Below are positions 3,101-25,945 of a stretch of 37,703 nucleotides of DNA, one piece after another. The DNA is taken from NCBI GenBank assembly GCA_013044035.1, contig JABEVE010000089.1, positions 1-37,703 of the forward strand. The letters run 5' to 3'. Made by a program: the position numbers and the translations under genes. Below the pieces are notes generated by a model. It ran no database searches and was not told the origin of the DNA. It saw only the letters and a list, made by a program, of their open reading frames with translations. Every line of letters starts with the position of its first letter. Position 1 is the first letter of the stretch. The DNA is from Burkholderiales bacterium. Its GTDB lineage: Bacteria > Pseudomonadota > Gammaproteobacteria > Burkholderiales > Burkholderiaceae_C.

Positions 3101-3405
3101 AAGGTGCAGAGGGCCGGCGCTTGGCCGTCGAGTGCGACGGCGACCAGTATCACGGTCCGGGGAAGTGGGTTGACGACATGCGTCGCCAGCGCATCCTGGA
3201 GCGCGCGGGGTGGACTTTCTGGCGCAGCTTTGCTTCCAGCTTCGTTCGACAACGTGAGGCGGTCTTGGAGGACCTGCTGAAGACGCTGAACGACCTGGGC
3301 ATCGAGCCGGTCGGAGCCGAATCGGTGGCCTCCTCCTTCTGGGTGCAGCATCGCGAGGTGGACCCGTTCCGGGTGCTGGATGAATCGGAAGAGGAGGCCG
3401 CGTAG
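127..3405 (+). CDS. SF1 helicase fused to a Vsr/DUF559-type nuclease, N-terminally broken
   Basis: A 1092-aa C-terminal portion of a large DNA helicase-nuclease. A GTG at 127 is only the first usable start. The same frame upstream reads VIVG-RHTGKS, a Walker A box (normally GPPGTGKS) with bases missing, and then meets a stop at 67-69, so the gene head is truncated or carries indels. Visible motifs are Walker B DEASQ at residues 676-680 with GDHKQ after it, EHFRS, FQGRERD and RYNVALSRARDR at about 903 (UvrD/Upf1-like C-terminal lobe). The C-terminus has a PD-(D/E)xK fold with D988, then E1002-C-D1004 and a downstream Q (VECDGDQYH), typical of Vsr/DUF559/MTES_1575 nucleases. Proteins with this order are often found in defence islands; a role in anti-phage defence is inferred. 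Functional status is doubtful because of the 5' lesion. Confidence 0.8.
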   Translation: MCHFLAQGKRVLVTSKGETALSVLREKLPERVQPLSVALLSDERDGMRQFEHAIHTISSTVSDLRPAQVEEHIAGLSAALTRLHGQIHMVDQQITSYASQHLEPVRFQGKEVMPNELAKQVVEQADAHGWFEDNLESSPGGPVPIGEPEMRELRAARIKAAEHLRHLHDDLPANDSLPTWDALREVHRALVRAKTIDTQVQMGDVLPLRDTAPVTLDSLRDLQQWMHVRQTTVDRLHRATQAWLPRFEGRLRRLPESDLPLMRALRQETLKLAELESQRKTFVAEAVDVPSDSHSCDDLREALDRLTQGKSAFFLPFGKAEARKVIEACKVQGAAPASALAWSQVAAVLNWRDDARQALARWASVGAEFGITPPEDRFIEQRVRQAAEDGQLILTLTDLVFRTEPEWPERLQKTFTDHAHALDLLNEDQRKSVEESVSAHLERQRLDSATMLVQDLQTKLQAHSGLLSDSVREFLDMHLGSIDAEETKLQENWVGLQRKLLKLNGLQPAFGVIQRVTQALRDAGAEKWSSKLCGVPVKGEADPLTPATWMDAWEWRQARDFLERIDKHHQLHTLFAKRKDMSNTLVKTYQDLVAEKTWLGVYNNSPDRVRQALQAYMNAVHAMGKGTGVRAVRFRKDARDAMSRAYLAVPCWVLPHWRVSETLPAEMGLFDLVIIDEASQSDISALPCLLRAKKVLVVGDHKQVSPSAVGTAEGQIRDLVHRFLSRQPHGSEMTPDKSIYDLARVVFAGNAVMLKEHFRSVPAIIEYSNREFYQGSIRPLRVPKANERLDPPLIDVFVQGGRREGDINKAEAQAILDDIEAIVEDPAMVGRTVGVVTLVGTKQAKHIHDLLHQRIAPADIVNREIVVGPPPVFQGRERDIMLVSLVLGPADRATADRLDMQQRYNVALSRARDRMMLYRSVQPGHFREDTLTGKLLQHFQHPFQRDVQKTAQLRERCDSPFECEVFDELTQRGYRVEPQVACGGFFIDMVVEGAEGRRLAVECDGDQYHGPGKWVDDMRRQRILERAGWTFWRSFASSFVRQREAVLEDLLKTLNDLGIEPVGAESVASSFWVQHREVDPFRVLDESEEEAA

Positions 3406-3675
3406 CGGGTGCGGGGTGCGGACGGTCCAGCTAAAAACTCGGCCCTACACAGGGGCACGCCGCAGATGCGCCCCCTGACACCTGCCGGATGGACGCTGGG
3501 AGCACGCGTACTGGCGCCAAGTGACGCGGCGCGTGGTGTCGCTGAGGTCATCACGCACGGTAACCCGGCGGCGCTCTCACCATTGTCCGGAACGCGACAT
3601 AAGGAGCCTGGCCCAGGAGCTCCGCATGTCCCACCAGGACGAGACTATTGGCCGCCCCGCGTCGGGACAAAGACG

Positions 3676-4467
3676 TTACACATCCAGCAGGCACGCCCAC
3701 TGAAACGCCGGGTTCTCGAACTCGAGCTGCCTCACGTCATCCACGCTCCGCCGGTTCATCGGATAGCCCCGAGGATTCGCAACCACTCGACAGCCGCCCA
3801 CGGCATAGTCGAACGAGTCGTGCACGTGGCCGTGTAGCCAGAGGTTGGCCTTGGAAACAACGTCATCGAGTTCGCTGACGAAGCCCGCGTTCAAAGGGTC
3901 GCCCAGGTAGCGTGGATGCACCGATTTCGCACTCGGTCCGTGGTGTGTAACGACCACAGTCCTGCCCGCATAGGGCAAGGCGAGTTGGTCTTCAAGCCAG
4001 CGGCGCGACTGTTCGTGGTCGCTCAGCGCCATCCCGGGCGTGAACGCCTCGGCACCGACACGAATCGCAGAGTGGTCGCGGAGCCGGGAGCCGGCCACAT
4101 CCATGAGCGCGCGCTGCGTTCGGTTTGCGTGCAGTCGGTAGTCTGTCCACAACGTTGCGCCGAGAAACCGAACGCCGCCGAATTCCAAAACGCCGTTGTC
4201 CAGCACCGTGACCGACGTTCCGCGCGCGGCGTGCTGGAGCCGCTCACGCATCGTGGGCCAGTCGGTACCATAGTACTCATGATTGCCTGGAACATAGACA
4301 ACCGGGACCGGCCAATTGGCGAACAGCTTGACTCCAAGTAAGTCATTTGCGACGTCGCCCGCGAGCACGAGCAGGTCCGCGTCGAAGGCTGGCCGAATCA
4401 AGGTCTCGTTGGGGAATTGGCGAGCGAGAAACTCGAGATGGAGGTCGGAGGCGAGCTGAATCTTCAT
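3676..4467 (-). CDS. calcineurin-like metallophosphoesterase
   Basis: A 263-aa cytoplasmic phosphoesterase. All signature blocks are visible: D8-L-H10 in SDLH, GDV with D38, GNHE at 61-64, THHGPS and LHGHVH near the C-terminus, which bind the dinuclear metal centre. The ATG at 4467 starts exactly at MKIQLASDLH, where the fold begins, and has AAGAGA upstream; the 26-residue upstream extension in the same frame is not protein-like. Substrate cannot be told from sequence. It stands alone between the helicase-nuclease and a hairpin-rich gene-free stretch, with no operon partner. Confidence 0.85.
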   Translation of the reverse strand: MKIQLASDLHLEFLARQFPNETLIRPAFDADLLVLAGDVANDLLGVKLFANWPVPVVYVPGNHEYYGTDWPTMRERLQHAARGTSVTVLDNGVLEFGGVRFLGATLWTDYRLHANRTQRALMDVAGSRLRDHSAIRVGAEAFTPGMALSDHEQSRRWLEDQLALPYAGRTVVVTHHGPSAKSVHPRYLGDPLNAGFVSELDDVVSKANLWLHGHVHDSFDYAVGGCRVVANPRGYPMNRRSVDDVRQLEFENPAFQWACLLDV

Positions 4468-4675
4468 GGTTCTCTTGTAACGCTGAACTGCACGAAACGG
4501 TGCACAGTGGACAGCGTGGCAACACAGAGCATCACCAGGTGACACCTGTTTGGTGTCCCTGCTGGCATGCGCACCGATGCATCTGGGCGCACCCTCACCA
4601 TCGACAAGGACGTCATCTCACAGGCCCAGCCCGATGGCCCCACACGATTGCTCTCGATAGGAGCAGCGGGAGGAC

Positions 4676-5212
4676 GGCTCGGCGTCCAGCCGAGTGCCTG
4701 GGCAGCGCATCTGCTGCGTGCAAGGGTCACAGTGCTCTCGACGGCGCTGCAATGGAAGGAGAGTTGCTCGCGACCGGGCCCGCCAGAGGCGGTGCGAAAC
4801 CGCCGCCGGCCCAGCGCAGCAGCCCTTGGCAAAGAGGGCGCCGCATCGCGGCGCTGCCTGCGGCCGGGGTCCCCACGGTTCATCGACGGACGAAGGACGG
4901 CAGGTCTTCACTCGGTCGGTGAGACGGCATCCCCGAGGACACTGGATGCGACCGTGGCTTACCCCGATGAGACAGGTGCATGAACTGCGGGGCAAGCCGC
5001 GATGGAACGGCTGCTGAACGCACAGTTGCGCCGTCCCCGGCTCACAGCGGCCTCGGCAATACGTCCATCGGGACGGCGGCGGTTTCGCACCGGCGAAGCC
5101 GGGCGGATGGACATGTGGCCTTGCAGGACGTCGCGACGAAAACGTGAGCGACGCGCGCCCCAAGCGCGCGAGGCAGTCTGCGGGGATGACACCCATTGCC
5201 CCCTGCCCGCAG
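4676..5212 (+). other. hairpin-dense gene-free region 1 (structured RNA or single-strand origin candidate)
   Basis: Between the phosphoesterase start (4467) and the relaxation-type gene at 5384 I see no credible gene but many perfect hairpins. CTCGGC-GTCCA-GCCGAG lies at 4678-4694; GGCGGT/ACCGCC with a GCGAA loop at 4788-4804, nested in GGGCC/GGCCC (4776-4780/4808-4812); a 7-bp stem with an ATC loop at 4838-4854; CGTCC/GGACG at 5062-5075; CCGGC-GAA-GCCGG at 5090-5102; a 7-bp stem with a CCCAA loop at 5152-5170; CTGCGGG/CCCGCAG at 5178-5184/5206-5212. An 18-bp perfect inverted repeat, GGTGCGAAACCGCCGCCG at 4791-4808 and its complement at 5074-5091, can close a domain of about 265 nt, competing with some local hairpins. 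The strand of function is unknown; + is assigned because the next gene is on +. Confidence 0.5.
4791..5091. repeat. 18-bp perfect long-range inverted repeat
   Basis: Arms at 4791-4808 and 5074-5091 are exact reverse complements over 18 bp, 265 bp apart, in non-coding DNA. They could pair as a closing helix of the hairpin-rich region. Confidence 0.8.
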
Positions 5213-5383
5213 GCGGCCGTGCGTGAAATCCTCGACCAACCAACATCTGCACGACGGGGCGTGGTGGGCTGGCTATTAGGACGTGATGGCGCGGTCATCT
5301 CTACACGAGACATGCCGCCGCTGCCGTGACGAGACCAATCGCTGGACAGCGGCCCCGAAAACCCCATCGACGGAGCCCCAGCC

Positions 5384-6670
5384 ATGCCAACAACACAACC
5401 GAAGGTGCGCCCACCTGCGCCACGCGACACCAAACCAATGACCCCAGGCACGCCACCTCCAGTGTCACGTGACGCCAGTAGCCGCATCACTGGTGGCACT
5501 GACACCTGCGTAACTGCTGTAACGCGTAACCGTGTAACCAACGAGGCCGAGGTCGGCGATACGGTGGTTACACCGTTACACGGTTACGACGACCAACGCA
5601 CAGAAGCCCCATCGCGCGGTCTGACCGCCAGGGCATCGAGCTTGCATTTGCGCGACGCCATCTACGAGCGCTCGCTTTTGCTCGCAAACAGGTTCAGGGT
5701 CATCCGGACCATCGACGTTGCCGCCGCTTGCTTTCCAGAGCGCCCTTTCAAAGCCTCACTCACAGCGGCCCAGCGGGCCGTGCGTGGCATGGTCAAACGC
5801 GGGCTCCTGCGGCGGTACCGCACGGACCGATTCCAGACTGTGTATGGTCTCACGCAACCCGGCGTGGACTGGCTCGGCGAGCATGGCCACGACGCGGCAT
5901 CGTCGGTGCGTCGCGTAAGTGACATGACAAATCCCGCGCACCGCCTGTGGTCCCAATTCCTCGTGGTTTGCAGCTGGGCGCGAGGCCTCCGCGCGGTCAC
6001 AGAATCCGAGCTCCTGCATGACCTCAATGCCAACGCCAAAGCCGCTGCCGGCGGTGGGAGCAAGACTGTCCAGGGTTATCTGACGGTCAACGTCCACCGC
6101 CGCGGCGCCTCTGTCCGCAAGCATTTGCGCCCAGACGCCGTCGCGTTCGATGTGGAGGGGCAAGGTGTCACCTGGTTCGAGGTTGACCGCAGCAAACGAG
6201 GCTCCGACCGGCAAGCGGACCTCGCGGCGCTGGTCAGCGCGATTGGCAACAAGACGGCCGACGGCAAGGTGCTCAGGCGGGTTGTCGTCATGTGCAAATC
6301 CGAGCGCATTGAACGTGACGCGCTACGCGTCGTCGAGCAGCTCGCTGCAGCCTGCAATCAGCTTGTGCTGACAGAAGGACGCCGGCACATTCGGCGGCAG
6401 AGCGAGGGCGTCTATGAAGTCATGGCGGCAATTCCGGCCAAGCGCCAGGACGGCCGAACCGCACTGATAGACGAGGAGGTCGGGCACGTCATCGTTCAGA
6501 TGCTGCCGACGTGGCTACCCAAAGTGAGGATTGACGCCAGCAACACGTTCAGCCTCGATGGTTGGTTCTGCGACAACTACCTGCCGTACAGGCGACCGGC
6601 GAATCTGAGCATTTGGCGAGTGCCCGAGTCACCGCTCGTGCCGGCAGACGATGAAGATGACGATGATTGA
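5384..6670 (+). CDS. replication-relaxation family protein (winged helix plus nuclease-like core)
   Basis: A 428-aa protein. The first 85 residues or so are Pro/Thr/Val-rich and look disordered. A winged-helix part follows (IRTIDVAAACF, then LTAAQRAVRGMVKRGLL and YGLTQPGVDWL). The core contains RPDAV with P250-D251, then WFEVD with E266 and D268, and K271. This layout matches Replic_Relax proteins of mobile elements and resembles a PD-(D/E)xK arrangement (nuclease activity is inference). The C-terminus is acidic. ATG 5384 has GGAG about 10 nt upstream. The 5' coding part overlaps inverted GTAAC repeat clusters, so it doubles as a protein-binding site or the true start is further downstream. 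It heads a block with SSB, HTH and P4-type helicase, pointing to replication or mobilisation of element A. Confidence 0.65.
   Translation: MPTTQPKVRPPAPRDTKPMTPGTPPPVSRDASSRITGGTDTCVTAVTRNRVTNEAEVGDTVVTPLHGYDDQRTEAPSRGLTARASSLHLRDAIYERSLLLANRFRVIRTIDVAAACFPERPFKASLTAAQRAVRGMVKRGLLRRYRTDRFQTVYGLTQPGVDWLGEHGHDAASSVRRVSDMTNPAHRLWSQFLVVCSWARGLRAVTESELLHDLNANAKAAAGGGSKTVQGYLTVNVHRRGASVRKHLRPDAVAFDVEGQGVTWFEVDRSKRGSDRQADLAALVSAIGNKTADGKVLRRVVVMCKSERIERDALRVVEQLAAACNQLVLTEGRRHIRRQSEGVYEVMAAIPAKRQDGRTALIDEEVGHVIVQMLPTWLPKVRIDASNTFSLDGWFCDNYLPYRRPANLSIWRVPESPLVPADDEDDDD
5510..5587. repeat. inverted clusters of 8-bp-spaced GTAAC repeats (iteron/operator-like)
   Basis: GTAAC occurs at 5510, 5519, 5526 and 5534 on the + strand, and GTTAC (its complement) at 5567, 5575 and 5583. 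The inner units are exactly 8 bp apart. The two clusters face each other across about 28 bp. The same arrangement recurs at 16154-16216. Repeated sites at one helical phase suggest cooperative binding by a replication initiator, partition protein or repressor. Confidence 0.6.
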
Positions 6671-9959: not shown

Positions 9960-10285
9960 ACGAACAAGACGAACAAGTTTTCCCCTGAAGTCCGTGAGCG
10001 CGCGGTACGCTTGGGTAGCAGGAGCACCGCGGCGAGTACCCCTCGCTGTGGGCCGCAGTCGAATCCATGGTCCCCAAGATTGGCTGCGTGCCACAAACGC
10101 TGCTGGAGTGGGTCAAGCGCGAGGAAGTCGATACAGGCCAGCGTGACGGCCTGACGAGCAGCGAGCGTGAACGCCTCAAACAACTCGAGCGCGAGAACAA
10201 GGAATTGCGCCGGGCCAATGACATCCTCAAAGCGGCGAGTGCTTTTTTCGCCCAGGCGGAGCTCGACCGCCGTTTGAAGAGTTGA
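9960..10285 (+). pseudogene. IS3-family transposase orfA, frameshifted and without ATG
   Basis: The reading NKTNKFSPEVRERAVRL begins at 9960 with ACG where related elements have ATG. Near 10011-10020 two extra bases shift the frame, after which it resumes as [16 protein letters not shown] (from 10067) and runs to the stop at 10283-10285, ending [13 protein letters not shown]. The HTH and leucine-zipper parts are therefore split. T-TTT-TTC at 10243-10249 is the slippery heptamer for the -1 frameshift that normally joins orfA to orfB. With these lesions this copy probably cannot make OrfA or the OrfAB transposase. Confidence 0.85.
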
Positions 10286-11187
10286 AGCGATTCATCGACC
10301 AGCACCGCCCCATGCACGGGGTCGAGCCCATCTGCAAAGTGCTGCAGATGGCCCCGTCGTGTGACTGGCGCCATGCCGCGCGTCATCGCAACCCCGAGTT
10401 GCGCAGCGCCCGTGCTCAGCGCGACGATGCGCTGGCTGCCGACATCCAGCGTGTGTGGCACGCCAACTGGCAGGTGTATGGAGCTGACAAGGTTTGGTTG
10501 CCGATGAACCGCGAGGGCAACCGGGTGGCGCGCTGCACGGTCGAGCGGCTGATGAAACGCCTGGGGCTGCAGGGTGCGCGGCGGGGCAAGAAGGTGCGAA
10601 CCACGGTACCCGACACTTGCGCGCCATGTCCACAGGACCACGTCAACCGGGTGTTCAAAGCCGAGCGGCCCAACCAGCTCTGGGTGTCGGACTTCACCTA
10701 TGTGAGCACCTGGCAAGGCTGGCTGTACGTGGCCTTCGTCATCGACGTGTTTGCCCGACGCATCGTTGGCTGGCGGGTGAGCACATCCATGCAGACCGAT
10801 TTCGTGATGGACGCGCTGGAGCAGGCTTTGTACGCGCGTCGGCCCGCTGCCAATGCCTTGGTCCACCATTCGGACAGAGGCGTGCAATACGTCAGCGTCA
10901 AGTACACCGAACGCTTGGCGCAGGCAGGCATCCAGCCCTCAGTGGGCAGCAAAGGAGACTCCTATGACAACGCCCTGGCGGAGACCATCAACGGGCTGTA
11001 CAAGGCCGAATTGATTCACCGCCGCGGCCCCTGGAAAACCAGGGAATCCGTCGAACTGGCCACCCTGCAATGGGTGCACTGGTTCAACCACACCCGACTG
11101 CTCAAACCGATTGGGGGTATCCCTCCGGCAGAAGCTGAGGCAAACTACTGGCGGCAACAAGCCAGTCAACACGCCATTCCGGCATGA
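10282..11187 (+). CDS. IS3-family transposase OrfB (DDE integrase core)
   Basis: 301 aa; the frame is -1 relative to orfA, as in IS3 elements that use programmed frameshifting. The rve catalytic core is complete: D137 (WVSDFTYV), D198 (HHSDRG) and E234 (LAETING), with 35 residues between the last two. The HTH_21-like N-terminal part ([19 protein letters not shown]) is present. TTG 10282 is only the first start codon of the open frame; natural production is by fusion to OrfA. Cleavage and strand transfer are its role, but it needs OrfA for DNA recognition, which is broken here. Confidence 0.9.
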
Positions 11188-16905: not shown

Positions 16906-18309
16906 TCAGGCAACGCGGCGGCCTACGCGGTGGAGCCAGACCACGTTTCCAGTGGTCGACACATTGCCCTCCGGTTGGAGGGGCGGACGCGGCTGCAGCG
17001 CAGCCGCCTCCTCGGCAAGTGGCACCCGCGCCGGCTCGGGCGGATGAACCGCCGACCCCGGGGCTTCGGCCCCCGGCTCCTCGTCCCGCTGGCTCTTGCG
17101 TCGGCGCGGGTGCTTCTTGAGGCCTCGGGGGTCATACACGGGCGGCAAGATGGCGCTCCCGAAGCCGCCGTCACCGTCCAGGCGGTCCAGTTCGTCGACC
17201 ACGTCCTGGTCCGCCAAATTGATGTAGTGCTCGGCCATGCGCGTGGACGTGTGCCCGAGCAGTTCCTTGATGACCATCGCACTGGCGCCCCGGCGCGCGT
17301 AGTACGTGGGGGCGTAATGCCGCAGGTCCCGAAACTGCAGCTTAGGCACCCCAGCCTTGATACGCACGCCGTCCCAGGCTTTGGCCACAGCGTTGGAGCT
17401 CATCGTGAACACCCGGCTGGCGTCGAGCCGCGGCACGCGCCCCAGGATGCTCAGGCTTCGCTGGCTCAACGGAACGACGGTCCACCGCCCTTTGGCGGAC
17501 GCTTCGGCACAACGCCGCTCGACGTCAATGTTTTCCCAGCGCAGGCTCAGCAGGCTGGCCTTGCGCAGCGCCGAACTCAGCGCCAACTCGACGATGGGCC
17601 AGACCTGGGGATTGTCGCACCCGGCCAGCGCGGCGATGAGCGCATCCATCTGCGCTGCGCTGATGTTGACGAAACGCCGTTTCGACTTGCCCAGGCGCAC
17701 GCCGATACAGGGGTTTTCAAAGTGCCGCCACTTCCACGTTTCGATGGCCTTGTTGAAAGTGTGCTTGAGCAGCGCCACCTCCTTCTGGACGGTGCTCTCG
17801 CTGAGGCCGTCGGCCTGCATGGTGGCCTTGAGCAGTTCGATGTCCGCCGTGGTGATGTCCTTGCACAGCTTGGCACCCAGTTGCGCAATCAACGCGTAGG
17901 TGCGCGCGGACTGCGCGCGCCGACGCTCGAGATAGGCGCTCCACCCCTGAGGCACCTCGGGCGCCTGCGGCTGCGTGCGCAGGTAGCGCCGGCCTTCACT
18001 GTCCACCTCGACGGCGAGGGCCGGCAGTCCGGCTGCGCGCACGTAGTGATTGAGGCGGGTGATTTCCGCAGCGTAGCCGCCCTTGACCAGGGTGTAGAGC
18101 TTGGCGTACTCCACCAGCAAGGCGCCCAGGCGTACCTGGCCGGGCCCGCCGAAGGCCGGGGCCTGGGTGGCATCGGCCTTGGCCTGCTCCTGGGTCATCC
18201 AGTCCTGCGCTTCCTTTTGCTTCCCGAAGCTTTTGCGCGTGGTGCGCCCATCAGGCAGACGGACCTCGGCGTGCCAGCCGTTGCGACCGGTGATACGAAA
18301 GGGCTTCAT
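16906..18309 (-). CDS. int: tyrosine recombinase / integrase
   Basis: 467 aa. An N-terminal arm-binding-like part (GRNGWHAEVRLPDGR), a core-binding SAM-like domain (about 125-205) and a catalytic domain with R249 (SALRKASL), K274, R330 (FRDLRH), H353 (LGHTSTRM) and the nucleophile Y362 (EHYINL) are visible. The HxxR histidine is replaced by R327, a less common variant. Residues 380-467 form a Pro/Glu/Arg-rich extension absent from most integrases. It would integrate and excise element A. No tRNA target or direct-repeat att pair could be seen. An inverted repeat lies 70-110 bp upstream and may be an operator or att arm. Confidence 0.88.
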   Translation of the reverse strand: MKPFRITGRNGWHAEVRLPDGRTTRKSFGKQKEAQDWMTQEQAKADATQAPAFGGPGQVRLGALLVEYAKLYTLVKGGYAAEITRLNHYVRAAGLPALAVEVDSEGRRYLRTQPQAPEVPQGWSAYLERRRAQSARTYALIAQLGAKLCKDITTADIELLKATMQADGLSESTVQKEVALLKHTFNKAIETWKWRHFENPCIGVRLGKSKRRFVNISAAQMDALIAALAGCDNPQVWPIVELALSSALRKASLLSLRWENIDVERRCAEASAKGRWTVVPLSQRSLSILGRVPRLDASRVFTMSSNAVAKAWDGVRIKAGVPKLQFRDLRHYAPTYYARRGASAMVIKELLGHTSTRMAEHYINLADQDVVDELDRLDGDGGFGSAILPPVYDPRGLKKHPRRRKSQRDEEPGAEAPGSAVHPPEPARVPLAEEAAALQPRPPLQPEGNVSTTGNVVWLHRVGRRVA

Positions 18310-18610: not shown

Positions 18611-18836
18611 CCTCTGTGTTTGGTGGCTCGCCGAGACGGACAGACTTGAGAACTGGGAAATAGCGCTGGACCTTTGAGAGTCGTTGCAGAGGGTTGTGCG
18701 TGATTGCGGGGCCGGCCCGTCGCCAACTGCCCTTCTGAAGCGTCTAGCGCACAGCCTCGTGCTTTTCGCTGAGCATGTGTGTTGGGCACGCGAGGTGAAC
18801 AACTCACATCGGCTGCGGCAGAGGCGGGCGTTTACC

Positions 18837-19244
18837 TCACTGGCAAATCTGCTGCCAGCGACCATCCACGCAACCGCCCACGCGGCACCCAAGCGCAGGT
18901 AGCGGGGGCAGCCCACAACTCATGGTGGGAGATTGGTTGCAGATCTCCTGCCAGCGCCCATCTACGCACGCGCCAATCGTGCAGCCGGGGTCAGGCAGCG
19001 GCGGAAGCCCGCAGCTCATAGTGGGTGCTTGATCGCATACCTGTTGCCATTGCCCGTCGACGCAAGCACCTACGTGGCAGCCCATCTGTGGCAGTGGCGG
19101 TATCCCGCACGTCATGTAGCCAGAGGTCGGCCCATTCGGGATAGGAGGGATCGGCGGAATCTGTATCGGGGCGATCTGCGCTAAAGCCGCCTGCGCGGCG
19201 AGCACCCCTACGCCGAGTAGAGAAAGGTGAAGACATCGCTTCAT
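18837..19244 (-). CDS. secreted protein with three 32-residue cysteine repeats
   Basis: 135 aa. MKRCLHLSLLGVGVLAAQAALAQ is a clear Sec signal peptide with cleavage after ALA or LAQ. A short Pro/Ile-rich spacer precedes three tandem copies of a unit reading CG[IL]PPLP..GC..G[AG]CVDG[QR]WQ.[IV]C, with period 32 residues (96 bp) and four cysteines per unit; the last copy ends at the stop. The product is probably periplasmic or extracellular with disulfide-bonded modules. AAGGGG lies about 8 nt before ATG 19244. No family recognised. It is not part of an operon. Confidence 0.75.
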   Translation of the reverse strand: MKRCLHLSLLGVGVLAAQAALAQIAPIQIPPIPPIPNGPTSGYMTCGIPPLPQMGCHVGACVDGQWQQVCDQAPTMSCGLPPLPDPGCTIGACVDGRWQEICNQSPTMSCGLPPLPALGCRVGGCVDGRWQQICQ

Positions 19245-19487
19245 AGGCCGGCCCCTTCGCTCATTGCGCGGATCTTAGCTGGTGTTACGGCCCCAAGCTG
19301 CTGCGGAGCTGCAGATAGCGTGTCGCCCTTGCGGGTCGGAGGAAGTCAAAGATTACCTAGATGCTAGCTTCCGCTGCCATTTTGAGATCGCCTGCAATAT
19401 TCAAGGCCCATATACTCACGCGCTCTACTCGACTTCCCCAAGAGAGCCAAAATCTACCCGAAATATAAGATTTAAATCGCCGAATGA

Positions 19488-19757
19488 CTATTTTCTATTA
19501 AATATGGGGTGCAAAATCTTCTCATAATCCCGCGAGAGGGCGGTGATCAGCGAGAAGCCAGTGATCTGCCACAGATATTCGGCGATCGAACCATGCCTTG
19601 TAATCATGGACGTCAATATTGATGCAATTAATCCGAACAGAGCTGTCCATCCGAAAATTGCAGTAACCACCTCCCAACGCCTTGATCCATGCGTCCCGCC
19701 CAGCAAATTCGCAGCGAGAATTATAAGCGCAGGAATTACTTGACTCAAGATATCCAT
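19488..19757 (-). CDS. small membrane protein, hypothetical
   Basis: 89 aa with three likely membrane segments: VIPALIILAANLLGG, VVTAIFGWTALFGLIASILT and ITGFSLITAL. ATG 19757 has GGAG 11 nt upstream. Base composition is clearly AT-richer than the flanking elements, indicating separate acquisition. Function unknown. Confidence 0.6.
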   Translation of the reverse strand: MDILSQVIPALIILAANLLGGTHGSRRWEVVTAIFGWTALFGLIASILTSMITRHGSIAEYLWQITGFSLITALSRDYEKILHPIFNRK

Positions 19758-20040
19758 GGTTTCGTATGCTCCCCCGCTGATCGGCTACACTGAAAAACGA
19801 GACTTCCGCCTCTGCGCGGAAGAGAGCGGTGAGGAAGTCGAGCTTCACGGAGACCCAGATCCGGGCGATCCTTGGCGAAGGGAAGGTAGATCTTCCGGTG
19901 ACGGAGGAGTACCGTAGGCACGGCATCAGCACGTAGGGGCCACTCCTTCACCACGCGCCACGTCTGGTCTTGCGGCTTTCGAGGATAGCGTGCAAAATCG
20001 GCGCATTGAATAACATCGGCAGTTCCTTCATGGGGGACTT

Positions 20041-20445
20041 ATGAGTGGCGACAGAACACTTCAGAACGAAAATCACGAATTTCAAAGAAAACTAGAACAA
20101 GAGAGGCGACTTCATGACTACGCGGTTCAATCCACAAAACTCCTAATTACTTTGAATTCCGGCTCAGCGCTAGCCGTTCTCGCATTTACTCAAGCGTTGA
20201 TTGCAAAACAAATATTCAGCAACTACAAATATTTCGCTCTATCAGCAATTCTGGTATACATTTCGGGCGCCGGGGCCGGGGCAATTTCGCTGCTCGTTAG
20301 AGGGCAGAGAGAACTGCACAGCTCAACGAAAAGCCGTTATCTACGAAGGTGGGAAAACGCTTACATCGGCCTTTATGGATGGGCTACCGCCTCATTCGTG
20401 ATAGGGTCGCTCGTCAGCATCGTCGGAATTCTTTGTAGATTTTAA
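20041..20445 (+). CDS. membrane protein with N-terminal coiled coil, hypothetical
   Basis: 134 aa. The first 35 residues are charged and helical (NHEFQRKLEQERRLHDYAV). Membrane segments follow: LLITLNSGSALAVLAFTQAL, ALSAILVYISGAGAGAISLLV and ATASFVIGSLVSIVGILC. GGGGGA precedes ATG 20041. AT-rich like its neighbours. The plan resembles small membrane effectors of phage-defence cassettes, but no known family is recognised. Confidence 0.65.
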   Translation: MSGDRTLQNENHEFQRKLEQERRLHDYAVQSTKLLITLNSGSALAVLAFTQALIAKQIFSNYKYFALSAILVYISGAGAGAISLLVRGQRELHSSTKSRYLRRWENAYIGLYGWATASFVIGSLVSIVGILCRF

Positions 20446-20521
20446 TAAGAAACCCTTCACCCTATGCAGCGGGGCGCTGGCCGTGTCTCCGATTGCGGCT
20501 GGGGTGCGCTGACCAGCGGCG

Positions 20522-20662
20522 ATGGCGCGCTTGGGACTCGGATTGATCGGCGATCCGGTCAACAAGACCAAATCGTTGGTGCTGACCGAGGAGGGACTGC
20601 GCGAGTCCGAGCGCCTCTTCAGGCAAAACTTCGAACGCTCGCGGCCCCGCAAGCAATCATGA
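20522..20662 (+). pseudogene. DUF6429-family remnant
   Basis: IGDPVNKTKSLVLTEEGLRESERLF followed by a short basic tail matches the C-terminal half of the DUF6429 family as I remember it. The upstream part appears in another frame (GWGALTS, about 20500-20520), so the gene is frameshifted and its N-terminus lost. Confidence 0.5.
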
Positions 20663-20713
20663 AACGAACTTCCAACTCACGACACTAGCCAGGGTTTCCC
20701 ACGGCGATGGCGC

Positions 20714-21058
20714 TCAATTTACTTTGCAGGGAAAGGCTTCTTTCATGGCGAGCCAAATCAGCGTATCCGGGGGCAACTCCCAGATCTTTGCATTATTTTT
20801 CAAGTAGTTTAAAGTAATCTGCACCTCTTGCCCAACAGTAACGCCCTGCGGAAAATCGCATTTCAGGCGGACAGAGGTGTAGTTAAAATAACTATTGGCA
20901 GCCCCAGCCACGTAACCCTGCCAAAACTGATAATTTGGGTCGCGCATGCTCTGCAGAGAATAGTACAAATCAGTTGTTGTGATGGCATTATTCGCGTTCG
21001 CAACGACTGGCGCGCAAACCAAAACACCCAACGCAAGAGTTAAAATTAGCTTTTTCAT
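20714..21058 (-). CDS. Rap1a/Tai family immunity-like secreted protein
   Basis: 114 aa. MKKLILTLALGVLVCAPVVANA is a signal peptide, so the protein is periplasmic. The mature part carries YVAGAANSYF, then C..PQGVTVGQEVQITLNYL and AMKEAFPC, the layout of the Rap1a/Tai family (type VI secretion amidase immunity proteins), which has two conserved cysteines. GGGG precedes ATG 21058. No effector gene is adjacent, so it may be an orphan immunity gene or a relative with another role. Confidence 0.7.
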   Translation of the reverse strand: MKKLILTLALGVLVCAPVVANANNAITTTDLYYSLQSMRDPNYQFWQGYVAGAANSYFNYTSVRLKCDFPQGVTVGQEVQITLNYLKNNAKIWELPPDTLIWLAMKEAFPCKVN

Positions 21059-21176
21059 ACCCCCGATCCTGCGTAAACATCATTTCCCTGGAGAGCCTGT
21101 GGGCACATTTGGGCCACACGTAGCAGCATTCCTCCTTTGCAACCAAAATTGTACGCTCCGCAACTCAATCATTTAG

Positions 21177-21590
21177 GTTCAACTTGAAGTCGTCGCCGCT
21201 CGACCTCCGATTGCTTCTGCATTTTACCGCTCAGGCAGGGGTTATTGCACGCTGAAACTGCATGCCAAGAGTACGACCCAGAGCCACCGGGCGGCGGTGT
21301 ACTTCGTGGACCCCGTGGTGCGCGAGGGGCTGACGCTCGAGCGAGCGCTGCACAAGGCCAAGGAGGAGAGACAAGCTCCTGAAGCCGCGGGCTGGAACCC
21401 GGCCGCATTGGACCAGGCTGCGCTCGACGGCTTGAGGAACGGCGCGTTCGAGGACAGTGAAGAAGAAGAAGGCGAAGCCGTGGTAGAGGAGTTCTACTCC
21501 GCGGCGCCAGCACAGCCGACCACGACGCTGGCAGACAAGCTCGCGGCCGGCCGCCAATATTCGAGCCGAACCCTCGCGGGAGCGCTGTGA
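21177..21590 (+). CDS. fragment of an unrecognised gene (C-terminal part)
   Basis: The open frame from the stop at 21174 reads YRSGRGYCTLKLHAKSTT, AAVYFVDPVVREGLTLERAL, a Glu-rich stretch and LAAGRQYSSRTLAGAL. GTG 21297 is the only ordinary start, yet protein-like sequence extends upstream to about 21215, so this looks like the 3' end of a larger gene cut at the element border. No family assigned. Confidence 0.4.
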   Translation, partial: VQLEVVAARPPIASAFYRSGRGYCTLKLHAKSTTQSHRAAVYFVDPVVREGLTLERALHKAKEERQAPEAAGWNPAALDQAALDGLRNGAFEDSEEEEGEAVVEEFYSAAPAQPTTTLADKLAAGRQYSSRTLAGAL

Positions 21591-21608
21591 GGCTTGAGAG
21601 CCGCAGAG

Positions 21609-22098
21609 GGCGGTTGGGGGAGCCAGCGCCATAGGCGCTGGGGGTGGGCGCGTCCAGCGCCTACCCGCCCGAGGCCGACAGGCCGAGCGGCCGGGGGAGC
21701 CGGTGGCGTGCGAGCTTACGCAGCGGCGAAGCCGGCGGCGGGCGTCCAGCCCGACGACCTGCCGCGCGTCAGCGGCGGCAGGCTGCGAAGCGAGAGGCGG
21801 CCCAAGCCGCCGGTAGCCACCGGGGGCGCAAGCCCCCGTCCCCAACCGCCGCAGGCGCGGGGCACCTCGGTTCCAGGTGCGGCGTCCAGCCGCAGGTCGA
21901 AGACCCGACCGTAGCGCGTAGCGCGCAGGGAAGCCGCAGAAGCGGGGTGCCCCGCGCTTGCGCGGGGGACGGCCCGAGCCCGCGCAAGCGGGCGCTGGAG
22001 CGCGCAGCGCGAAAGGCAAGGAGAAGCGGCGATTGCGGGCGTCCAGCCCGCAAAACAAGGCGTGCGGCCCTAGCCGCCGAGCGCAGCGAGAGCCTTGT
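21609..22098 (+). other. hairpin-dense gene-free region 2 (structured RNA or single-strand origin candidate)
   Basis: About 490 nt without a credible gene. A long-range helix GGCGGTTGGGG (21609-21619) with 21840-21850 closes a first domain holding these hairpins: 21623-21641 (8 bp), 21643-21665 (9 bp, loop GTCCA), 21739-21753 (loop GTCCA), 21758-21782 (7 bp), 21796-21811 (loop CCAA) and 21821-21838 (7 bp, loop GCAA). The second half has hairpins at 21862-21880, 21878-21894 (loop GTCCA), 21895-21905, 21950-21967 (7 bp, loop CTTG), 21978-21993 (6 bp, loop GCAA) and 22033-22053 (8 bp, loop GTCCA), and a closing ACAAGGC/GCCTTGT helix (22055-22061/22092-22098) around GCGGC-CCTA-GCCGC. GNRA and CUUG loops on + suggest RNA from this strand. 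Confidence 0.55.
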
Positions 22099-22166
22099 GG
22101 TCGGCGTTTCGACGCGCAGGCCAACCCGGCCGAAGATATTGTTTTCGACGGCGCACTGTGGGGGAT

Positions 22167-22200
22167 GTCTTGCGCGGCGTCTTGTTCGCCACCGCAAGAC
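22167..22200 (+). promoter_or_regulatory. nested hairpin in the leader of the relaxation-like gene
   Basis: GTCTTGCG (22167-22174) pairs with CGCAAGAC (22193-22200), with GGCG/CGCC (22176-22179/22187-22190) inside. It ends 22 nt before the start codon of the next gene and could control translation. Confidence 0.4.
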
Positions 22201-22222
22201 CCACCACAAGGAAACCGTCAAG

Positions 22223-23068
22223 ATGAAACATCTGGAACACCCCTTGGGCGATCCGCCCAAGCGCAGCTACACCCCGGAGCAGCAGCAGGCCCTGCAGCGG
22301 CAGGCCGAGCGCGCGCGCAGCGCAGCGGCGGCCTCTGGCATTTCTCCCCGCCAGGCGCGCTTGAACAAGGTCCGCGCCGCTCTCCTCCTGACCTACCGCT
22401 GGCAATTCACGTCGCCGGCCCTGCTGGACACCCATGTCCAAGGGCGGTCCGGCCTCGCACGGGATTTGACCCGTGGCCAGGCGCTCGATGAGCACCCGGT
22501 CCCCGGTCCTGGCCGGATGCTCGACCTGCCGGCCTCGGTGGTCACGCTGGCCCCGCTCGGGCTCGAGTGGCTCGAGCCCACTTTGGACGAGCCCCTCGAT
22601 TACGCCGCAGAGGTGCCTTGGCACCAGTTGCGGCATGACCTGACCGTGCAGCGCATGACCCTTGGCGCGCTTCGTAGCGAGAAAATCACGGCCTACCGTA
22701 CCCCGTTGGAGATCGCGGCGAAAAGCGTGCGGGGGCGCAAACAGCCGGACGCGGTGTGGATGTTGTCCAGCGGGGACCGAGCGGCCTTCGAGCTCGAATT
22801 GACCGTCAAAAAGGGGCGTGAATTCGACGAAACCTGCCGCGCCATCATCGAAGCGCTGGACCGTGCCAAACCTGATGCGTACGACCGGTTCGTGCTCGCC
22901 AGCCCCAGCCGGGCCATCCTGACCCGGTACCGCCAAGCATTGCGCGCAGGCGCCAGTATCCAACTCTGGGAACGAAACGACCAGCGCCAGTGGCGGAAGG
23001 CAGAGGGATTCCTACAGATTCCGGACTGGGTGGCCGGGCGCATCCTGCTCCAGGAGGTGGCACTGTGA
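22223..23068 (+). CDS. replication-relaxation-like protein (winged helix plus PD...ExE...K core)
   Basis: 281 aa. A basic, Gln/Ala-rich N-terminus precedes a helical winged-helix-like part (ARLNKVRAALLLTYRWQF; VVTLAPLGLEWL). The core has QPDAVW with P175-D176, then AFELELTVKKG with E190, E192 and K196, the same plan as the protein at 5384-6670. These features fit Replic_Relax-type proteins of mobile elements; nuclease-like geometry is inferred only from the acidic/lysine pattern. ATG 22223 has AAGGA 10 nt upstream. The frame is open upstream to 21644, but that part is the hairpin array and not protein-like. The stop overlaps the next start (GTGA). Confidence 0.6.
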   Translation: MKHLEHPLGDPPKRSYTPEQQQALQRQAERARSAAAASGISPRQARLNKVRAALLLTYRWQFTSPALLDTHVQGRSGLARDLTRGQALDEHPVPGPGRMLDLPASVVTLAPLGLEWLEPTLDEPLDYAAEVPWHQLRHDLTVQRMTLGALRSEKITAYRTPLEIAAKSVRGRKQPDAVWMLSSGDRAAFELELTVKKGREFDETCRAIIEALDRAKPDAYDRFVLASPSRAILTRYRQALRAGASIQLWERNDQRQWRKAEGFLQIPDWVAGRILLQEVAL

Positions 23069-23763
23069 AATCCCCTCTCCTCTGTCTCCTTGTCGCCGGC
23101 ACCATGCTGCTGAGCGCTTGCGGCCCGGACCTCCAGCAGCAAGTGGACACCCTGCAGCAGACCAACGCCGCGCTGTACTCGGAAAACCTGAACCTGCGCG
23201 CCCAGATCGCTGGCTACAACCGGGCGCAAGCTCTCGCCGAAGCGAAAGCCAAGGGTGTGGAACAGGCCAGGATCCAAGCTGGCCAACGACTCGCAACGGT
23301 CGCGCCTGCCTGTGACATCGTGCCCTTCGCGTGCTCCGCGTCGTTCAGGCGCGAAGCCGATTTTGCGGCGGCGCATTTCCCTGCAGACCCGCCCCTTGCC
23401 ATTGCTTGGACGCTGGTCACCGCCGCGGTGCTGCTGGCACTCGTGGTCGGCTCCCTCAATGTCTTGTGGGGCTTCTATGCACGCTCGTGGCGCCCGGAAT
23501 TGGATCGTGCACGGGCTGCACGCGAAATCCTGGCGACGGCCGACACGCGGCGCGCCGAGGTCGAGCGCATGTGCGACGCCATGGACGAGCTGGTCGCACA
23601 GGAACGGCGGCGGCTTCAGTTGCTGCAGGAGAAGACCGCTGCCGCAGGCGCTGGCTTGGAGGATGTGGGGCGGCAGGTGGTGGCTGCACGGTCCGAACTG
23701 GCCAGGCTGCATGTGGAATGCGAGCACATGCGCAGCGTGCGCGATGCCCTCTCGGGCTTGTGA
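23065..23763 (+). CDS. coiled-coil membrane lipoprotein, hypothetical
   Basis: 232 aa. Signal peptide with lipobox LLSAC (lipidated Cys about residue 18). A short coiled coil (LQQQVDTLQQTNAALYSENL) lies on the outer side. A membrane segment IAWTLVTAAVLLALVVGSLNV follows at about 110-130, then a long C-terminal coiled coil rich in Arg/Glu. GTG 23065 overlaps the previous stop and has AGGAGG 7 nt upstream, so it is translationally coupled to the relaxation-like gene. The lipobox plus internal transmembrane helix is unusual. A role in the envelope during element transfer is only a guess. Confidence 0.65.
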   Translation: MKSPLLCLLVAGTMLLSACGPDLQQQVDTLQQTNAALYSENLNLRAQIAGYNRAQALAEAKAKGVEQARIQAGQRLATVAPACDIVPFACSASFRREADFAAAHFPADPPLAIAWTLVTAAVLLALVVGSLNVLWGFYARSWRPELDRARAAREILATADTRRAEVERMCDAMDELVAQERRRLQLLQEKTAAAGAGLEDVGRQVVAARSELARLHVECEHMRSVRDALSGL

Positions 23764-24050
23764 CTTCCTCCGCCGGCAATAACTTGGCACGCCACGGCCT
23801 ACAGCCCACAGAGCCGATTCCTTGGGCACTTTCTTTCCTCTTTGTGGAGGAAAGTGCAATCCATTGGTTGCGGCAACCTGGGTGGCTCAGACGGGTCCGC
23901 GCCCCCGTCCACCACGGCCGACGCGAATGCCCATCGCGAGGGCCGTCCCCTGGCCAGCCCTCCCGCTGTGCAGCCCCTTCGCCTCGTCCGCCTGAATACC
24001 TACTCTGCAAAAAGGCGCGATTTTGTTTTTGTTGGCGGTCTGTGCAGAGG

Positions 24051-24248
24051 ATGGAAAGAAAGACCACCAACCGGCAGGCCCGCTCCCAGCGCGTTCGCCG
24101 ACCCCCTGCGATCGATGGCATTGCGGTAGATTTCCCCTTCGACGATCTGGCCCCGCCGAGCGCGAAGGAGATTGCCCTGGTGTTCGGCATCCTGCCGGAC
24201 ATCCTCGACGATCTGCTGGTCGCCCCCGAAGCCCCCAAGGAGGACTGA
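24051..24248 (+). CDS. 65-aa protein upstream of the serine recombinase
   Basis: The N-terminus is strongly basic (MERKTTNRQARSQRVRRPP) and the C-terminus acidic (DILDDLLVAPEAPKED). AGAGG precedes ATG 24051. It stops 2 bp before the recombinase start, and its last codons contain that gene's AGGAGG ribosome site, so the two are one operon. Size and linkage would fit a recombination directionality factor; no family is recognised. Confidence 0.55.
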   Translation: MERKTTNRQARSQRVRRPPAIDGIAVDFPFDDLAPPSAKEIALVFGILPDILDDLLVAPEAPKED

Positions 24249-24250
24249 GC

Positions 24251-25945
24251 ATGGCCGTTGCCCTGTACGCGCGCGTTTCCACAGTGCGTCAAGCCGAGAA
24301 GGATCTCTCGATCCCCGATCAGCTCAGACAGATGCGCGCGTGGTGCGAACGCAATGGTCACGCCGTGGGCCGCGAGTACGTCGAACCCGGGGCGTCCGCG
24401 ACCGACGATCGCCGAGCCGTGTTCCAGCAGATGATCGCCGAGGCCACGGCGAAGCACGCGCCCTATGACGCGATCATCGTGCACAGCCTCTCGCGCTTCT
24501 TTCGCGACGCGATCGAGCTTGGGCTCTACGAGCGCACGCTCAAGAAATCCGGGGTTCGCTTGATCTCCATCACCCAGCCCACCAGCGATGATGCGATGGG
24601 GGAGATGATTCGGCGCATTTTTTCGACCTTCGACGAATACCAAAGCAAGGAAAACGGCAAGCACACCTTGCGCGCCATGCAGGAAAACGCCCGCCAGGGC
24701 TTCTTCAATGGCTCCCGAACCCCCTTCGGCTACCAGGCTGTCGAGGTCGACAACAGCACGGGCAAGGCCGGAAAAAAGAAGCGCCTAGCCCTCGAGGAAG
24801 ATGAGGCGTCCCTCGTCCGAACGGTGTTCCACCTGTACGAAAACGGCTTGCACGGCCAGGACATGGGCTCCAAGCAGATCGCGACCTACTTCAATGAGCG
24901 CGGCACGCTCCTGCGCGGCGCGAAGTGGACACGCACTCGCGTCCACGCGATGCTCTGCGACACCACCTACAAGGGCCAGTACGTCTTCAACAAGACCTCC
25001 AACCGCACCAAGTCGCGCAAGGCCCCAGAGGACTGGATCATCGTCGAGGTACCTCCGATCGTGTCACCGCAGACCTTCGAGGCCGTCACCGCCAAGCGGC
25101 ATGAACGTGCGCCGACGGCGACGCCGCCACGCGTCCTGAACTCTCCGACGCTGCTGACGGGACTGCTCAAATGCGCTGTCTGTGGGGCCGGCATGACCTT
25201 GATGACTGGCAAGTACGGGAAGTACCGCTACTACAAATGCAATACCCGAATAGGGCAGCATGCCAAGGCATGCACCACGCCGGCCGTCCCGATGGACAAG
25301 CTGGACACGCTCGTACTGTCCGCTCTGGCCGACAAGGTCCTGACGCCGGAGCGCCTGAAGGCCATGCTCAAGGAACTGAAACAGCAATTCGAGCTGTCGC
25401 GGAGCAAGCACGGCGAGGTCCTGCGTGCCATGCAGAAGGAACTGAGCGAATTGGAAACGGCCCTCAACCGCCTCTACGTGGCCATCGAGAAGGGGTTGAC
25501 TCCGATGGACGACATGCTCGGGCAGCGTGTCCAGGACCTCAGGAACCGGCGGGAATCCGTGCTCGGGGAGATGGCACGCTCCCAGGCGACCGAAGCGTCA
25601 CCTCTGTCGGCTCTGAGCAACGCTCAGTTGACTGCCTTCGCCACGAGCATGCGTTCGCGCCTGCTCGACCGCTCCACCAGCTTCCCGAAACGCTACCTGC
25701 AGACCCTCGTGTCGGAGATCACCTTCGACGGCGAGAAGGTCCGTATGCAGGGGCGAAAGGCCGCTGCGCTGGAAGCCGCGACGGGCAAAAAAATGGGTAC
25801 CTATGACAAGGTACCCATTTTTAGCCATGGTTGGCTCGGCAAATACCAGTCGTCGAAGCCAGCGACGAGCAAGCTCCGCGCCCACTGCGCCAACTTGCTG
25901 CCTGCTTCGGCCATGGCAAGCGTGTTGGCCATGCCATCGCAGTAG
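24251..25945 (+). CDS. large serine recombinase (integrase)
   Basis: 564 aa. The resolvase domain begins ALYARVST with nucleophile S10, then SLSRFFRD and a DEYQSKENGKHT helix. The recombinase domain follows (FGYQAV to NKTSNRTKSR, about 155-260). A zinc ribbon has C308, C311, C330 and C341, and a coiled coil lies at 375-450. AGGAGG precedes ATG 24251. The frame passes through the terminator palindrome at 25789-25822 (reading KKMGTYDKVPIF) and ends 145 bp inside the antisense of the DUF1566 gene, so the last 40-45 residues may be foreign sequence joined at an attachment site. It would integrate element B, or the prophage. Confidence 0.9.
   Translation: MAVALYARVSTVRQAEKDLSIPDQLRQMRAWCERNGHAVGREYVEPGASATDDRRAVFQQMIAEATAKHAPYDAIIVHSLSRFFRDAIELGLYERTLKKSGVRLISITQPTSDDAMGEMIRRIFSTFDEYQSKENGKHTLRAMQENARQGFFNGSRTPFGYQAVEVDNSTGKAGKKKRLALEEDEASLVRTVFHLYENGLHGQDMGSKQIATYFNERGTLLRGAKWTRTRVHAMLCDTTYKGQYVFNKTSNRTKSRKAPEDWIIVEVPPIVSPQTFEAVTAKRHERAPTATPPRVLNSPTLLTGLLKCAVCGAGMTLMTGKYGKYRYYKCNTRIGQHAKACTTPAVPMDKLDTLVLSALADKVLTPERLKAMLKELKQQFELSRSKHGEVLRAMQKELSELETALNRLYVAIEKGLTPMDDMLGQRVQDLRNRRESVLGEMARSQATEASPLSALSNAQLTAFATSMRSRLLDRSTSFPKRYLQTLVSEITFDGEKVRMQGRKAAALEAATGKKMGTYDKVPIFSHGWLGKYQSSKPATSKLRAHCANLLPASAMASVLAMPSQ
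25789..25822. terminator. bidirectional terminator palindrome at the 3' end of the recombinase
   Basis: AAAAATGGGTACC (25789-25801) and GGTACCCATTTTT (25810-25822) form a perfect 13-bp stem with an 8-nt loop and T tracts on both strands. It encodes KMGT in both the recombinase and the opposite DUF1566 frame. Confidence 0.85.

Follow-up and report, generated by a model that had tools for sequence, protein, structure and literature searches.

A conserved strand-specific hairpin array beside a MobC-like gene: a candidate part of the transfer origin of a Burkholderiales mobile element

What is a stretch of about 500 bases, crowded with hairpins, doing directly upstream of a relaxation-like gene in a Burkholderiales genome? 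The array, hereafter element B, lies on a contig of 37,703 bases (C34, hereafter the window) of a 3.7-Mb draft genome. A sequence-only reading had described it as a two-domain set of hairpins in the size class of large ornate bacterial RNAs, and had proposed a companion array, element A, around 4676–5212. We find that element B is a real, conserved and strand-specific fold. Our favoured reading, held with modest confidence, is that it forms the structured part of the transfer origin (oriT) of a small mobile element, integrative and mobilizable, whose relaxase is of MOB_C (MobC/TraX) type, and acts there as single-stranded DNA.

A conserved, strand-specific fold

The plus strand of 21590–22150 folds at −350.2 kcal/mol with RNA parameters, giving a z score of −7.04 that none of 100 shuffles equalled; the minus strand reaches z −3.35 against its shuffles. 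Element B contains 13 non-overlapping hairpins with Watson-Crick stems of at least five pairs, compared with a shuffle mean of 4.8, and none of 500 shuffles reached 13. Its most distinctive loop is GCGTCCAGC, a word that includes the closing bases: four copies lie in element B and seven in the window, where 0.88 are expected and none of 100 shuffles reached seven. The fold proposed from the letters thus stands up to shuffling, and the loops named there, GCAA twice and CTTG once, can be seen by eye.

Both long-range helices described in that reading exist: the 11-bp helix (Table 1) and the 7-bp helix, 22055–22061/22092–22098, are exact complements. The 7-bp helix is part of a conserved, covarying helix (P-b). 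The 11-bp helix by itself is within chance, since inverted repeats of 11 nt with arms at least 200 apart arose in 66 of 500 shuffles, and no counterpart was seen when relatives were searched by eye. The division into two domains is therefore doubtful; the conserved long helix of the array is P4, not the 11-bp helix.

Table 1. Coordinates of element B, its parts and neighbouring features in the window
Feature	Position	Strand	Remarks
Integrative mobilizable element carrying the array	18624–25837	.	TGGCTC at both ends; 7214 nt identical to JAKAFK010000107.1
Whole folded array, element B (5' limit approximate)	21599–22119	+	Fold z, hairpin excess, covariation of 3' domain
11-bp helix of the sequence-only reading, 5' arm	21609–21619	+	Partner 21840–21850; exact complement, chance-level
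11-bp helix of the sequence-only reading, 3' arm	21840–21850	+	Partner 21609–21619
GTCCA-loop hairpin no. 1	21642–21666	+	
GGGGGAGCC motif preceding helix P5	21693–21701	+	Same place before P5 in relatives
P5 helix, 5' arm	21702–21707	+	Partner 21816–21821; own partner beats median foreign partner in 21 of 22 arrays
GTCCA-loop hairpin no. 2, 5-bp stem	21739–21753	+	
P5 helix, 3' arm	21816–21821	+	Partner 21702–21707
GGGGGC-GCAA-GCCCCC hairpin	21822–21837	+	Three-base loop in many relatives
Long helix P4, 5' arm	21850–21873	+	Partner 21939–21962; inverted repeat I1, 24 nt, 88%
GTCCA-loop hairpin no. 3, within P4	21878–21894	+	
Long helix P4, 3' arm	21939–21962	+	Own partner best in 18 of 21 arrays
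3' domain, model R1	22015–22119	+	99.1 bits, the window being an R1 training sequence; covariation
Helix P-a, 5' arm	22024–22032	+	Partner 22101–22109; 9 of 9 pairs with two-sided changes
GTCCA-loop hairpin no. 4, 3' domain	22033–22053	+	
Helix P-b, 5' arm	22056–22061	+	Partner 22092–22097; 7 of 7 pairs with two-sided changes; most of the earlier 7-bp helix
Hairpin GCGGC-CCTA-GCCGC	22064–22077	+	
Helix P-b, 3' arm	22092–22097	+	Partner 22056–22061
Helix P-a, 3' arm	22101–22109	+	Partner 22024–22032
GCGCAG tail, common to many relatives	22114–22119	+	
MobC (MOB_C relaxase)-like gene, 281 aa	22223–23068	+	Predicted winged helix and PD-(D/E)XK-like residues
Lipoprotein, coiled coils and membrane helix, lipobox LLSAC	23065–23763	+	Overlaps mobC stop; read by eye
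Large serine recombinase, right end of element	24023–25945	+	PF00239, PF07508, PF13408; open frame crosses element end

Relatives of the array preserve its pairing. The 3' domain recurs in other Burkholderiales with altered stems that still pair. In ten such domains (alignment A2, on which our search model R1 rests), pairing is kept in 88.0% of cells, two-sided changes occur at 26 of 31 pairs and the covariation score is 0.677; covariation, whose absence would have counted against the earlier reading, is thus present. Moving the partner by 1–3 columns left 39.0–46.1% of cells paired and scores of 0.107–0.213, and none of five measures was reached by any of 500 shuffles. The 34 model matches of alignment A3, which include L127, L108 and a second, weak match in L123, gave 90.7% pairing, two-sided changes in 29 of 31 pairs and a score of 0.730, values biased towards the model to which that alignment was fitted. 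Alignment A1 holds 13 sequences; C36, G013 and the Sulfuriferula array were excluded from A2 and R1 for poor alignment. Helix P-a of the window pairs one column off relative to the majority of the alignment.

Helices P5 and P4 lie outside R1; for these, the pairing energy of a 5' arm with its own partner was compared with that for foreign partners. For P5, whose two anchors were found in 22 of 32 arrays, own arms paired at −15.1 and foreign arms at −9.6 kcal/mol; for P4, with L120 left out for an empty segment, the values were −72.5 and −47.3. Distant arrays have little sequence in common and, by eye, a common architecture: GGGGGAGCC motifs, a hairpin and then a very long helix enclosing a GTNCA hairpin, and last the 3' domain. 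Its parts, likewise by eye, are a closing helix, a GTNCA hairpin and another helix, within which stand one hairpin with a CCTA loop and one short hairpin. GCGCAG mostly follows the 3' domain in these arrays, again by eye.

The plus strand is the more stable one in all 32 arrays compared, under RNA and DNA parameters alike, and the helices of A3 contain 43 G-T against 10 A-C mispairs, a ratio to be read knowing that the model itself favours G-U. Together these asymmetries suggest that one strand acts single-stranded.

Element A fared differently. Region 4600–5300 folds just weakly better than shuffles (z −2.18, one of 20 as good) and has no significant R1 match (13.6 bits, E 0.53), so the model does not support it as a second copy of element B. 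It contains one GTCCA hairpin, and a second MobC-like gene follows it at 5384–6670 (+), with an E-value of 4.4e-13 at first inclusion.

The neighbouring gene and the element that carries it

From the end of the 7-bp helix at 22098 it is 125 nt, as first described, to the start of the next gene at 22223, and profile matches relate its product to relaxation proteins, in agreement with the original description. A MobC-family profile built stepwise from trimmed domains served to find such genes. Of 23 family proteins, NF041423 ('MobC family replication-relaxation protein') matches 15 at E ≤ 0.1 (best 4.4e-79) and PF13814 (Replic_Relax) matches four (best 2.7e-7). The window protein itself reaches NF041423 at E 8.5e-6 with 25.2 bits, against a curated cut-off of 200, and matches nothing in Pfam at E ≤ 0.1; by its sequence it appears to be a distant member of the MobC family. 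Residues H138, D176 and E190 are invariant in the 23 members, and Q143, E192 and K196 are also invariant in the 16 members of alignment A5. A structural model of the window protein (pLDDT 89; a single-sequence model at pLDDT 39.8 was discarded) finds PD-(D/E)XK nucleases and MarR-type winged helices among its best Foldseek matches, none with E ≤ 0.001 and with TM-scores of at most 0.43. MOB_C relaxases are described as related to PD-(D/E)XK enzymes, and two sources state that no covalent relaxase-DNA intermediate was observed for the MOB_C relaxases studied (PMC12857230, PMC9299015). The neighbour is likely a MOB_C relaxase-like gene, encoding a DNA-transfer enzyme.

Several searches traced the pair of array and gene through other genomes. 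The downstream protein found a match in five of 100 genomes, the window's own among them; in one (G052) the match has a hairpin array immediately before it, and the contig, of 5079 bases and with ends that look by eye like repeats of one another, is probably a small plasmid. Array-DNA searches led to further arrays adjoining relatives of the same gene. Against 199 related genomes, element B DNA matched 101 at E ≤ 0.01, many of the matches being short and GC-rich; ten DNA-match places were read, nine from this search and G012 from another, and three of them (L072, L074, L077) had none of the array hairpins searched for. In plasmids and phages, a nucleotide search with element B gave no match at E 1e-5 or 1e-3; relaxing the threshold to E 1 brought up 28 plasmid records, whose matches were short and unconvincing.

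R1 was applied more widely. At E ≤ 0.001 per genome, the genomes with a match numbered 13 among 399 in the family, 15 among 399 in the order and two among 369 in the class, the last two being the window's own genome and G233, both counted in the family and order figures too. Contig C36 of the window's own genome and G013, neither of them in the training set, score 32.4 and 38.4 bits. The Thiothrix unzii plasmid pTunz3 carries an array scoring 83.8 bits as a training sequence, and SGTM_pl1 of Sulfuriferula nivalis carries one recognised by eye that scores just 14.9 bits; both plasmids are typed non-mobilizable.

A mobC-like gene accompanies the array in 27 of the 33 loci tabulated, some of which had been found through the protein itself. 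Twenty loci fetched with flanks around R1 matches (L110–L129; G1089 was left out and C36 had been fetched earlier) were none of them found via the protein, and two (L115, L121) were also matched by array DNA. Fourteen of these twenty have a mobC-like gene, counting a fragment in L113, two with weak first E-values (L119, 1.8e-4; L120, 2.3e-5) and two whose gene lies about 2.9 and 3.4 kb away (L122, L129). No mobC gene was found in the other six (L114, L116, L117, L118, L121, L127). L127 looks, by eye, like a coding false positive of R1 and was excluded from the P5, strand-stability and loop-count comparisons. Type IV secretion genes occur in several loci: a VirD4/TraG-type coupling protein in L026 and L129, TrbL in L128 and TraN in L123.

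The array belongs to a mobile element. JAKAFK010000107.1 is identical to the window over the 7,214 bases listed in Table 1, with different flanks on both sides, and its genome (G196) belongs to another family of the same order by the whole-genome set. In JAKAFK010000107.1 the right-hand TGGCTC is the 3' end of an intact tRNA-Asn. Between the ends lie the array, the mobC-like gene, the lipoprotein gene and a large serine recombinase. Present at two sites and carrying a recombinase and a relaxase-like gene, this is an integrative mobilizable element whose transfer is predicted; both assemblies are draft metagenomes and a binning error is possible, though the flanks differ.

Other features of the region were recorded alongside. 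The second gene after the array encodes a lipoprotein with a membrane helix in five loci (the window, L027, L028, L080, L126); most of the five have coiled coils, and they are alike in architecture by eye with no detectable sequence similarity, and the searches made with the window's copy detected no sequence relatives. A Rap1a immunity-like protein (PF18602) is encoded within the element at 20714–21058 (−). Just outside its left end lies a tyrosine integrase, 16906–18309 (−), so islands may be stacked here. Further upstream are an ALIL pseudoknot (RF01497, 113 bits) at 10240–10356 (+), a frameshift signal of IS3-family transposases, and a helicase-nuclease protein with a REase_MTES_1575 domain at 127–3405 (+) that is possibly defence-related. 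A circular form was considered for L002, a 7.6-kb contig, and rejected, its ends having no overlap of 20–127 bases.

RNA or single-stranded DNA

Which nucleic acid folds? We compared loop types with two RNA families and one phage region. In 26 arrays with 387 predicted hairpins, GNA triloops number 62 (16%), GTNCA 50, CCNA 43, GNRA 12 (3%) and UNCG 0; L113, L114, L116, L117, L118 and L121 (low scores, no complete mobC) were left out together with L127. In 29 RNase P genes of related genomes (298 loops; a 30th at a contig edge was left out), 100 loops are GNRA (34%) and two are GNA (1%), and in 21 of 28 tmRNA genes (210 loops; the other seven at contig edges) 17 are GNRA (8%) and none GNA. In DNA, mini-hairpins with a GNA or GNNA loop are unusually stable (PMC4686876), and GCA and GTA triloops are present in the intergenic region of filamentous phage f1. 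Array loops are thus unlike those of RNase P RNA or tmRNA and resemble those of stable DNA hairpins, which indirectly favours single-stranded DNA.

Fold energies were tried as a second discriminator. The z score for 14 of the 26 arrays was −8.1 with DNA and −6.9 with RNA parameters, compared with −2.65 and −3.51 in 14 of the 29 RNase P genes (20 shuffles each). The f1 single-stranded-DNA control went the opposite way (−5.5 with DNA, −8.4 with RNA), and we rejected the measure.

The main rival to the oriT reading is a large structured non-coding RNA that the mobilization locus would transcribe and that MobC-dependent transfer would require, just as SGI1 requires its sgm-sRNA; we rate this as possible though rather unlikely. 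The strong plus-strand fold, its covarying secondary structure and some G-U pairs are what such an RNA would show, and SGI1 supplies a precedent, an essential self-encoded sRNA between mpsA and oriT (PMC9299015). Against it, a simple consensus scan of 21000–22400 found no sigma-70-like promoter and no intrinsic terminator (other promoter types lie outside that scan), and the loops, with GNRA rare, UNCG absent and GNA triloops common, differ from those of both RNA families. Nor is a known RNA family involved: Rfam has no family for element B at gathering score and nothing near that score in 21500–22230, and in the window ALIL alone reaches threshold. What holds of the earlier reading is the structure itself: large and ornate, specific to one strand, covarying, and placed ahead of a relaxation-like gene. 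Its assignment to the large ornate bacterial RNAs is weakened by the scan, the loops and the mobilization module around the array. OLE, GOLLD, ROOL and HEARO are RNAs of that class; element B is like them in size and hairpin number and unlike them in having no Rfam match, in loops unlike the RNA controls and in sitting by a relaxase-like gene.

Three further explanations weigh less. A cis-regulatory leader of the mobC operon, acting by attenuation or translational control, would suit the 21 of 27 loci in which array and gene share a strand with the array 106–445 nt before the conserved part of the gene. Orientation differs between groups, however: the other six have the two on opposite strands, five of them converging (L026, L030, L122, L123, L128) and L129 having the array upstream of a VirD4-type gene followed by mobC. 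The 3' end of the array points towards the gene in 26 of 27 loci, L129 being the exception. The array is therefore not in general a mobC leader, and with the array of a CloDF13-like plasmid (below) also on the opposite strand and six loci with no mobC gene found, we consider this improbable. We give as little weight to a single-stranded DNA promoter or priming site of the leading region, of Frpo/ssi type and used in the recipient. Strand-specific folded DNA near a transfer origin fits it, Frpo being a folded single-stranded promoter, but there are no sites with a −35/−10-like pair in 21000–22400 by simple consensus, the array is longer than the 50–350 bp regions searched for Frpo in PMC11541004, and conserved loops have no role in that model. 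Least probable is a gathering of GC-rich repetitive palindromes (REP/BIME- or MITE-like) by chance or transposition. Several short direct and inverted repeats do occur within element B; against this, different helices recur in conserved order with covariation, the array recurs beside mobC, and a search of the window's own genome with element B finds B alone at E ≤ 0.001. Covariation and the slid controls rule out chance palindromes.

A candidate transfer origin for MOB_C elements

The oriT reading draws further support from plasmids. Searches with MobC proteins of the C36 type matched 1198 plasmid records and those with the L129 type 1211, largely from Klebsiella, with many annotated mobC among the matches listed. 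In the CloDF13-like plasmid NZ_CP082022.1 (L196), 480 bases starting about 106 bases upstream of mobB fold at z −11.3 on the strand opposite mobB-mobC and at z −6.4 on the other (60 shuffles per strand). The predicted fold of 700 bases has three GTCCA loops, one GTTCA, three CCCA, one GCAA and no GNA triloop, and a long helix encloses one GTCCA hairpin. A strict count with stems of at least five pairs leaves two GTNCA hairpins (reached by 0 of 300 shuffles) and one CCNA hairpin (as many in 32 of 300). R1 gives this plasmid a weak match (15.5 bits, E 0.0089 in 12.5 kb), and in five fetched MobC regions no match bettered E 0.5; on pXBB1-9 and pEMB3, parts of an array can be made out by eye. In the pMET1 paper a putative oriT is assigned to the region upstream of mobB, and the arrangement oriT-mobB-mobC is compared with CloDF13 (PMC2262945). 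Our reading gains support from finding an array of this kind ahead of mobB, the place assigned to oriT in such modules, and the order in L129 of array, VirD4-type gene and mobC, with the array on the other strand, supports the comparison with CloDF13.

That comparison has limits. The window element shares with the CloDF13 module a MobC-family protein and, judged by one CloDF13-like plasmid, an array that combines a long helix with GTNCA and CCCA loops. It differs in showing no mobB by mobC, having a lipoprotein gene and a serine recombinase instead, and in a MobC below the NF041423 cut-off. The MOB_C relaxase TraX of pAD1 is similar in its PD-(D/E)XK relationship and in that no covalent intermediate was observed; unlike the system here, TraX binds five direct repeats about 70–120 bp from nic, and a large fold is not mentioned in the accessible text (PMC12857230). 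The mob region of SGI1 likewise has a structured nucleic acid adjoining an atypical relaxase gene and needed for mobilization, but with a tyrosine-recombinase-like MpsA and a proven RNA, the sgm-sRNA (PMC9299015).

The f1 intergenic region resembles the array in that several hundred bases fold on one strand, GCA and GTA triloops included, and differs in architecture and function. Its own function lies in phage replication and packaging.

Arrays sit beside mob genes on mobile elements, as a MOB_C oriT would. We infer that element B is the oriT itself and acts as single-stranded DNA. MobC would open the DNA, leaving the plus strand of element B single-stranded, and this strand would fold into the conserved hairpin set, grouped about a single long helix and carrying the fixed loops GTNCA, CCNA and GNA. 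On the transferred (or retained) strand the fold may then be recognised by MobC, by the coupling protein or by replication proteins. Because the accessible MOB_C literature reports no covalent MobC-DNA intermediate, we speculate that the fold could mark and hold that strand. A bolder version, possible but in our estimate doubtful, is that a large ornate single-stranded DNA of about 500 nt, found from Burkholderiales elements to CloDF13-like plasmids, replaces the missing covalent link in MOB_C conjugation by marking, holding or re-circularising the transferred strand.

MOB_C relaxases are related to restriction enzymes, and no covalent intermediate has been observed for those studied; a conserved folded strand beside their genes is a concrete candidate for what marks the strand and lets it be rejoined, and the parts of the array can be removed one by one. 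A search model of the R1 type may reveal mobilizable elements missed by MOB typing; four plasmids with the array or a mobC gene are typed non-mobilizable. Should the array act as RNA, it would represent a large structured RNA family with no Rfam match and a second case of RNA tied to mobilization. Among the titles and abstract openings listed in literature searches that mostly did not reach subscription journals, none reports such a fold for MOB_C origins, which does not in itself prove novelty.

Individual loci add variety. L113 and L114 (G361) are two similar arrays about 42 kb apart on one chromosome, one adjoining a MobC fragment and the other with none found. L117 and L118 (G481, G340) have arrays near-identical by eye with no mobC found, the L117 copy adjoining an MmeI-type restriction gene. 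L121 (G066), at 3331–3406 and 4053–4129, has an array with no mobC found and, some 650 bases away, a tRNA-Asn, which is also the kind of tRNA at the site of the window element in JAKAFK010000107.1. On pEMB3 (L133) a partial array at about 2260–2420, minus strand, stands between a beta-lactamase gene and a MobC-like gene. In L073, L075, L076 and L070, direct CCACTGGAT-like words and an inverted copy can be seen by eye between array and mobC, and these are possible candidate protein-binding sites.
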